This document shows, in pieces, positions 26,675-34,029 of a stretch of 64,000 bases of DNA (position 1 is its first letter; every line of letters begins with the position of its first letter). The notes below the pieces were generated by a model that searched no databases, had not been told where the DNA came from, and saw only the letters and a program-made list of their open reading frames with translations. Location of the stretch: the NCBI RefSeq assembly GCF_009663395.1, contig NZ_QKNW01000001.1, positions 1,240,001 through 1,304,000 of the forward strand, written 5' to 3'. The DNA comes from Halosegnis longus (GTDB lineage: Archaea; Halobacteriota; Halobacteria; Halobacteriales; Haloarculaceae). Made by a program: the position numbers and the translations under genes.

Positions 26675-26756
26675 TATGCCGCCTCCCCGATTTGAACAGA
26701 GCAAGACAGTCCTGCTCGCTTCGCTGTGCGGGCTGTGACTTGCAGGCTCAAATCGG
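26675..26756 (-). repeat. tRNA-3'-end hairpin repeat downstream of tRNA-Phe
   Basis: Bases 26675-26697 repeat, base for base over 23 positions, the 3' end of tRNA-Phe (26804-26826). From 26687 the sequence folds on itself: CCGATTTGAAC against GCTCAAATCGG (26746-26756), GCAAGACAGTCCTGC (26701-26715) against 26726-26743, with loop TCGCTTCGCT. This gives a long hairpin ending in a copied T-arm and acceptor strand. The rest of the 26575-26805 gap holds no gene. Confidence 0.75.
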
Positions 26757-26805
26757 CTCGGCGTCGTTTCTGCGACTCCTCGCTGTTGCTCGGAGTCGTA
26801 GAATA

Positions 26806-26879
26806 TGCCGCCTCCCCGATTTGAACGGGGGACAGCTCGATCTTCAGTCGAGTGCTCTCCCAGTCTGAGCTAAGGCGGC
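26806..26879 (-). tRNA. tRNA-Phe (GAA)
   Basis: Read on the minus strand the gene starts GCCGCCTTAGCTCAGA and ends ATCGGGGAGGCGGCA. The anticodon loop is CTGAAGA with anticodon GAA. The T arm is CCCCG-TTCAAAT-CGGGG. Its 3' part is duplicated 129 bases downstream. Confidence 0.96.
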
Positions 26880-27140: not shown

Positions 27141-27145
27141 CAACG

Positions 27146-27219
27146 GGGTCTGGGCGGAATGTGAACCACGAGAAGACGTGCTCGCTTCGCTCGTCGTGTA
27201 GGATTCAATTCCGTCCGGC
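27146..27219 (-). repeat. tRNA-3'-end hairpin repeat downstream of tRNA-Val
   Basis: GGGTCTGGGCGGAATGTGAA at 27146 is a slightly altered copy of the tRNA-Val 3' end (27261 onward), 115 bases away. It pairs with the inverted GGATTCAATTCCGTCCGGC (27201-27219). The centre contains GTGCTCGCTTCGCTCGTCG, the same loop words as in the tRNA-Phe element. Confidence 0.65.
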
Positions 27220-27259
27220 AAACGATTCGCTCGTCACGTCCGTTCCTCGCAGAATCGTA

Positions 27260-27331
27260 TGGGTCCGGGCGGAATTGAACCACCGATCTCCTCCTTGTAA
27301 GGGAGGCGTCATACCACTAGACCACGAACCC
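27260..27331 (-). tRNA. tRNA-Val (TAC)
   Basis: Minus-strand gene GGGTTCGTGGTCTAGTGG... with anticodon loop CTTACAA, anticodon TAC. The T arm closes on GGTGGTTCAATTCCGCC and the acceptor CGGACCC pairs with GGGTTCG. 72 bases, no encoded CCA. Confidence 0.95.
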
Positions 27332-33835: not shown

Positions 33836-33909
33836 GGGCCCTTAGCTTAGTCTGGTATAGCACTCCGCTCATAACGGAGCGGTCGTTGGTTCAAATCCGA
33901 CAGGGCCCA
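33836..33909 (+). tRNA. tRNA with CAT anticodon (elongator Met or Ile2)
   Basis: GGGCCCTTAGCTTAGTCTGG start, anticodon stem CTCCG/CGGAG with loop CTCATAA, T arm GTTGG-TTCAAAT-CCGAC, acceptor AGGGCCC and discriminator A. It is not the initiator by its acceptor end. Methionine elongator and isoleucine-2 (modified CAT) cannot be separated with certainty by eye. Confidence 0.9.
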
Positions 33910-33953
33910 TGCAGTTTCTCGGGGAGCGAACGCGACGAGTGAACTGGTCGTCT

Positions 33954-34029
33954 GTCGATTTGAAACGGGGCAGTCGCGCGCAGCGGAGTGAGCACGTCTG
34001 CCCGTGGTTCACAATCCGACAGGGCCCAT
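33954..34029 (+). repeat. tRNA-3'-end hairpin repeat downstream of the CAT tRNA
   Basis: AATCCGACAGGGCCCAT at 34013-34029 duplicates the tRNA 3' end (33894-33910), offset 119. GTCGATTTGAAACGGGGCAG (33954-33973) pairs with the inverted sequence at 33998-34020. The loop carries GCAGCGGAGTGAGCAC, the complement of the loop words in the other two elements. The remaining 34030-34175 stretch shows nothing coding. Confidence 0.7.

Follow-up and report, generated by a model that had tools for sequence, protein, structure and literature searches.

Why should the 3' end of a tRNA gene recur, letter for letter, a short distance downstream of that gene? The question arises at tRNA-Phe of Halosegnis longus, within a 64,000-nt stretch of the genome that we refer to as the window. 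A sequence-only reading had pointed out a perfect 23-base copy of the tRNA-Phe 3' end 129 bases downstream, forming one arm of a long imperfect hairpin, had seen the same design after tRNA-Val and a tRNA with a CAT anticodon, and had proposed a small mobile or regulatory non-coding element. We find that these units belong to a mobile, non-autonomous, non-coding mini-cassette family of about 120 bp at tRNA 3' ends in Halobacteriales: a gene-less cassette, often present as tandem arrays, lies downstream of many haloarchaeal tRNA genes and carries the tail of its host tRNA twice, once in direct and once in inverted orientation.

Units of one design follow three tRNA genes in the window

Each unit begins with a variable hairpin (hp1), followed by the host T-arm in inverted orientation (T'), a conserved imperfect stem-loop (hp2) and the direct copy of the tRNA 3' end. 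Two covariance models were used: R1, built from six units that all come from the window's genome, and R2, for which 138 units were taken exclusively from other genomes, the window's genome being left out. The first unit (129 bp, 26677..26805, minus strand, as are all of its parts), delimited by repeat search, lies downstream of tRNA-Phe(GAA) (26806..26879, minus strand; ARAGORN and Rfam RF00005). Its hp1 is an inverted repeat in the sequence, GACTCC..GGAGTC, at 26771..26799; T', located by repeat search at 26748..26763, is the left foot of hp2, which the independent model R2 matched at 26686..26757 (E 8.3e-13). The direct copy (26677..26696) reproduces tRNA-Phe positions 54-73 at 20/20 and falls within the 23-base perfect repeat, which is found as described at 26675-26697.

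The second unit (115 bp, 27145..27259, minus strand with all its parts; repeat search) follows tRNA-Val(TAC) (27260..27331, minus strand; ARAGORN). Its hp1, ACGATTC..GAATCGT, is read from the sequence at 27222..27258, hp2 is matched by R2 at 27155..27213 (E 3.1e-7), and its T' (GGAATTGAA) agrees with the AATT T-loop of the host; the direct copy of the tRNA-Val 3' end (27145..27164, repeat search) matches 14/18 over the last 18 nt at a spacing of 115. The third (119 bp, 33910..34028, plus strand throughout; repeat search) lies downstream of tRNA-Met(CAT) (33836..33909, plus strand; ARAGORN), with an hp1 that is imperfect in the sequence (33913..33945), an hp2 matched by R2 (33954..34019, E 1.2e-14) and a direct copy of the tRNA-Met 3' end found by repeat search (34009..34028, 16/18, spacing 119), in which the T-loop reads TTCACAATCC and not TTCAAATCC.

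Run on the 64-kb window, R2 returned three matches with E < 0.05, the Phe, Val and Met units, the next standing at 0.066; the shared design is thus recovered by a model that never saw this genome, and the window units are not chance. Each of the three folds into an imperfect hairpin that outdoes almost every dinucleotide shuffle (z -2.5 to -2.8 as DNA), and RNA folds of the units are also good. The other two tRNAs of the window have no unit: Asn directly precedes Met, and repeat search around Arg(gcg) was empty. In an Rfam scan of the window, gathering scores were reached by tRNAs alone, and the units match no curated family.

Across the whole genome, a downstream copy of the 3' end (within 400 nt) was found at 9 of the 41 surveyed tRNAs and an upstream copy at none, the best upstream match reaching at most 12/18, in agreement with the earlier observation that the element always lies 3' of the tRNA. 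The hp2 structure is present at eight of these nine tRNAs, and the eight whole-genome R2 matches with E < 1e-3 are all at these eight; Leu-caa, the remaining one, instead has a partial duplication of greater extent. At that locus (G000:C1:161873-163956), tRNA-Leu(CAA) is followed by a partial self-duplicate with a GTGAGCGAAGCGAACGAGAG hairpin inserted in its variable arm, the copy lying at 196 nt. The spacing of 115-129 bases, initially taken to be invariant, is local to the window: it extends to 99-157 genome-wide, and the family median is 120 (5-95% 87-189).

The family is restricted to Halobacteriales

A covariance scan of haloarchaeal genomes had been suggested as a check, and it returned order-wide matches in Halobacteriales. 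R1 matches were present in 36 of 39 relatives, and a phylum-wide search of 296 genomes gave 56 positives, every one of them Halobacteriales, with 0 positive genomes outside this order. Among the genomes listed in that search, only four Halobacteriales had no match (G144, G307, G125 and G031). These are near-complete genomes in which units were not detected; first-look candidates were far fewer in G031, G125 and G307, where base composition could differ rather than units being truly missing. Our catalogue comprises 338 units, located at 215 tRNAs that represent 18 amino-acid classes.

We also searched GTDB genomes with a plain 22-nt hp2-core pattern lacking any T-arm. This yielded 80 loci, each in a named GTDB genome; two are alphaproteobacterial and almost all belong to Halobacteria. 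In 60 of 82 core-pattern occurrences a tRNA lay within 700 nt with its 3' end copied (at least 14/18), the remainder being mostly degenerate copies, contig ends or copies behind a provirus. When the matches of two genomes were examined one by one, each listed match was tRNA-associated, at most a few hundred bp away.

Some sequences share only the core or its tip. An alphaproteobacterial intergenic repeat (CTCCCC...GTGGGGAGGTCGACGCGCGCAGCGAAGCGAGCACGTCGGGTGGGGG; L210, L274, L103) holds the identical 22-nt core and has no tRNA. On haloarchaeal megaplasmids including pNRC100 (L317, L319 and L321, around position 1500), a different conserved palindrome, GTGGCTGCGCGCGCAGCGAAGCGAGCACGGAGCGGAGGG, has a 22-nt tip in common with hp2 and in two of the three is close to a gene annotated as a DNA-binding protein. 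Scanning IMG/VR with the core gave a single match, on a bacterial phage-like contig without a tRNA, which we regard as chance; in blastn searches of INPHARED and PLSDB, phage matches were tRNA or chance, and the plasmid matches examined were mostly another palindrome, common to megaplasmids.

Units carry no genes, which makes the family easily overlooked. No earlier description of tRNA-tail cassettes was found in the open-licence papers searched, and the novelty of the family is accordingly provisional.

Direct and inverted copies follow the host tRNA

Over the 338 units, length has a median of 120 bp, an IQR of 112-139 and a 5-95% range of 87-189. The cassette starts exactly after tRNA position 73 and ends with a second copy of host positions ~57-73. 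Host specificity of this direct copy sets in at about position 57 and stops exactly at 73, corresponding to a duplication of 17-20 nt: most positions 57-73 show an excess identity to the host of 0.74-1.0, against about 0 at 44-51 and a near-background level past 73, and the 5' T-stem strand gives no host signal. T' is host-specific over positions 57 to 64. A pyrimidine at nt 74 proved general to these tRNAs and not unit-specific.

Within hp2, compensatory change was found at 18 of 21 pairs, a count as high in 0 of 500 shuffles, although related rows inflate such covariation counts. Internal C.A and often T.T mismatches recur, and the tip reads GC-GAA-GC; conservation of this core is biased, because many loci were fetched via the core, and the outer helices are unaffected. 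Both the loop and the pairing are shared across the genome and across the order. Covariation alone is no proof of a selected structure, because fold-back correction of a quasi-palindrome could also create it.

The two ends of a unit, TTTT/TTCT... and ...GTGG, do not form inverted repeats. No protein-coding gene lies within units, and a search for units with kilobase cargo found none: what looked like gaps of 1.1 kb turned out to be a pair of adjacent tRNA arrays, and ordinary flanking genes with a chance terminal copy account for two 'units' of 665-735 bp. Variants occur elsewhere. On plasmid NZ_CP119561.1 of Haloarcula halophila (L318, 1380-1640), hp2 lies within a tRNA-Cys-like gene, between T-stem and T-loop; the proximal 3' end is not intact and a second tRNA-like 3' end lies beyond. 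One genome (G006; L149, L154, L152, L153, L167) has two more classes of tRNA-tail insert, one of 330-430 nt that starts near ACCACCTTTTT and contains TGGACCAAAAA, the other (GAGAGAGC...GAGGACG) inside the T-stem 3' strand of array copies.

Near-identical cassettes at different tRNAs differ in their inverted arm. In G033, the T' of paired units (Leu-gag/Val-cac and Met/Val-cac) differs at the sites where the hosts differ. Across 473 pairs at different tRNAs whose hp2 cores are at least 90% identical, the pairs not being independent, T' at differing sites matched its own host 1337 times, the partner 247 times and neither 356 times; at T-loop position 57 alone, own host and partner were matched 416 and 18 times, respectively. 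With one partner per unit, the corresponding counts were 179 own, 38 partner and 42 neither. T' thus carries the sequence of the current host at otherwise near-identical cassettes, and the direction of the effect is clear.

Units are polymorphic, spread between tRNAs and form polarised arrays

Presence per tRNA, whose polymorphism the sequence-only reading had proposed to examine, differs between related genomes. Four clean empty/filled site pairs were found between Halosegnis genomes, one empty and the other filled, at Arg-tct, Pro-tgg, Ser-tga and Ser-gga. In each, the flank that follows the tRNA at the empty site resumes past the last copy in the filled genome, with orthologous DNA beyond; flank identity was 404-440 of 500 at the three sites scored (Arg-tct, Pro-tgg and Ser-tga). 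The second 57-73 copy closes the cassette, and the old flank therefore continues after that copy. At a single locus, an empty/filled pair reads equally as insertion or as precise loss, and loss via the 17-nt repeats can mimic insertion.

Movement between tRNAs is shown by nearly identical units that one genome carries at different tRNAs: in G033, Leu-gag and Val-cac have a near-identical whole unit and Met and Val-cac a near-identical hp2, and in G218 the Val-tac and Phe units have 45/46 nt in common. The direction and place of unit entry are what we infer from these patterns. The mobile half of the original proposal thus stands, given the empty/filled sites, near-identical units at different tRNAs and near-order-wide presence. 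Its regulatory half is speculative, and an essential regulatory role is disfavoured because occupancy is patchy and polymorphic; the cassette appears selfish or neutral. The T-arm hairpin of the original description also stands, to which we add hp1, between the tRNA and that hairpin, and the tandem arrays of other genomes, both of which it had missed.

There are 85 arrays with two or more units, with a maximum of five. Preservation favours the tRNA-proximal repeat over the last one in 38 arrays, with the reverse in 6 (p = 3e-5). Entry of units beside the tRNA would be expected to leave this polarity, which gene conversion from the tRNA could also generate. The modules hp1 and hp2 are exchanged separately: units 1 and 3 of the L345 Phe array have a common hp1 and different hp2, and both units of L347 Arg share hp1 and not hp2. 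Perfect tandem multiplication is seen at L348.

A candidate mechanism and its known relatives

Cassettes would spread by being copied to other tRNA ends and inserted beside the tRNA. A tyrosine recombinase acting in trans may recognise the T-arm together with folded hp2, as the integron integrase uses the folded attC hairpin, and T' would stay matched to the host T-arm via selection for pairing, fold-back repair of the quasi-palindrome, or both. Recombinase-driven insertion that recognises a folded hairpin is the explanation we prefer; it is unproven, and we give it about an even chance. The enzyme is proposed as a hypothesis, whereas the duplication, the arrays, the polymorphism and the retuned arm are observed.

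Tyrosine recombinase genes occur in 13/13 genomes tested, unit-less genomes included, and the association is therefore non-discriminating: such enzymes are permitted, not implicated. No integrase gene lies inside a unit or consistently adjoins one, and we found no autonomous partner element; an integrase near L079/L301 belongs to the upstream tRNA-Val and not to the array, and one 9 kb from an array in G218 sits at another tRNA. An IMG/VR search for the SNJ2-type integrase gave no confirmed relative. At three loci (L201, L232 and L304) the tRNA remnant is separated from the unit array by a provirus that encodes an SNJ2-type integrase, and SNJ2-type enzymes therefore use the same tRNA end. At L200 and L263, another element precedes the unit array. 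Since a classical crossover brings in donor acceptor sequence, the host-specific copy needs a staggered insertion or a copying step, which to our knowledge no known tyrosine recombinase performs.

The units miss the definition of SNJ2-type elements, attC, MITE, PATE, SMR and casposon in at least one point each. An attC site is a folded imperfect hairpin with conserved mismatches and a foot of inverted recombination-site copies, in arrays with recipient-proximal polarity. Like attC sites and CALINs, the units have a folded imperfect hairpin with conserved unpaired bases (core conservation being partly search-biased), tandem arrays and tRNA-proximal polarity; unlike them, they have no gene cassettes and no integron integrase nearby, their foot adopts the sequence of each host tRNA, and T-arm GTTCRAAT replaces the R'/R'' boxes GTTRRRY. 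SNJ2-type (pleolipovirus) integrative elements have the same target, the last ~13-14 nt of the tRNA, where units duplicate 57-73, but these elements are 12-17 kb with an integrase gene, whereas units are gene-less and ~120 bp; the att regions of SNJ2 and Halfgib1 have neither hp2 nor T', and R1 had no match in L351-L356. Haloquadratum SMRs, PATEs and MITEs are likewise ~110 bp, transposase-free and haloarchaeal, SMR mobilisation being enigmatic (PMC3119063). SMRs, however, target PATEs and have inverted termini and no target duplication (PMC3119063), where units have no inverted termini and a 17-20 nt duplication; PATEs are IS605-derived without target duplication, none of the three is tied to tRNA 3' ends, and units lack the terminal inverted repeats matching a transposase-bearing element that define a MITE. 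Casposons and CRISPR arrays resemble the units in that casposase uses the 3' ends of tRNA genes, the target is duplicated on insertion and arrays grow beside a leader; unlike casposons, units have no TIRs, need no Cas1 and have a longer duplication ending at N73.

Alternative explanations

The main rival, which we consider rather unlikely, dispenses with a dedicated enzyme and has units move from one tRNA 3' end to another by ectopic gene conversion or by template switching during replication. A fork would exit the acceptor tRNA at its T-rich trailer, copy a unit elsewhere and come back through the T-loop, whose GGTTCRAAT is universal, so that positions 57-73 of the acceptor itself are duplicated; the stable hairpin would provoke the switch and fold-back synthesis retune T'. 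The duplication does begin at near-universal T-loop sequence and stop where pyrimidine-rich trailers start, T' tracks the host, and both the reshuffled modules (L345 Phe, L347 Arg) and the perfect tandem multiplications (L348) fit; haloarchaea are, moreover, polyploid with active gene conversion. Fold-back correction should nevertheless erase the conserved C.A and often T.T core mismatches unless these are selected, their conservation being partly biased by how loci were fetched, and restriction to one archaeal order and to tRNAs is left unexplained. We prefer the recombinase over template switching. That the unit instead serves the host as RNA, acting within the tRNA primary transcript in 3' processing, termination or attenuation with T' pairing to the tRNA T-arm or its copy, we judge improbable. 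Units are always 3' and on the same strand, T' is complementary to the T-arm and RNA folds are good, but only 8 of 41 tRNAs are occupied in the window's genome, close relatives occupy different tRNAs, and multi-unit arrays would be redundant for a regulator. G.U pairs are rare (65 of about 2500), and in the free helix B their number does not exceed that of A.C (7 versus 11); this pattern is unlike that of typical structural RNAs, and a selected structural RNA is not favoured.

The remaining explanations invoke known elements. Haloarchaeal proviruses use the last 13-14 nt of a tRNA as att core (PMC7911831; PMC8371274), the very place that units occupy, and units might be attL/attR scars left when ordinary integrated viruses or plasmids lost their interior. 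This is quite improbable given the narrow length distribution (median 120, IQR 112-139), the same hp2 at many isotypes and provirus att regions (SNJ2, Halfgib1) without hp2; among the listed matches of two genomes, none lay at the far end of a large element. Full-size elements, the other origin considered at the outset, do not explain the copies, because these matches are tRNA-adjacent and the two provirus att sites lack the structure. Very unlikely, finally, is that units are mini-casposons or PATE-like elements whose mobility depends on a Cas1-type casposase or on a Y1 transposase (IS200/IS605). The tRNA 3' end is indeed a casposase target, with 14-15 bp duplicated on insertion (PMC6977970), and PATEs bear terminal palindromes (PMC3119063); yet the M. 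mazei casposon duplicates the last 4 bp of the tRNA and 10 bp beyond (PMC6977970), where unit duplications of 17-20 nt end at position 73. Cas1 was not detected in the unit-rich G002, G033, G242 and G218, nor Y1 in the carriers G000 and G223, and each is therefore dispensable. Neither is needed for unit maintenance, though a since-lost enzyme may have mobilised units earlier.

Implications for tRNA loci of haloarchaea

Returning to the preferred recombinase, its fullest form would be a self-retuning, gene-less cassette that can use any tRNA 3' end, duplicates the new host's tail on one side, has its inverted arm rewritten and builds CRISPR- or integron-like arrays through an archaeal recombinase working on folded single-stranded DNA. 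This composite we hold only tentatively, as somewhat less than an even prospect; we know of no such mode from archaea. The family is best placed as a variant of transposase-free mobile repeats, and there is a fair chance that the retuning mechanism is categorically new.

The family amounts to a nearly order-wide repeat at essential genes. Its units serve as strain-level markers of tRNA-locus turnover and offer a reason for the clustering of haloarchaeal genome islands at tRNA 3' ends. The same ~45-nt core recurs at various tRNAs, and its arm is re-matched to the host each time; this constitutes a natural experiment, through which the origin of host-matched hairpin arms, whether by recombinase, fold-back repair or selection, becomes directly testable.
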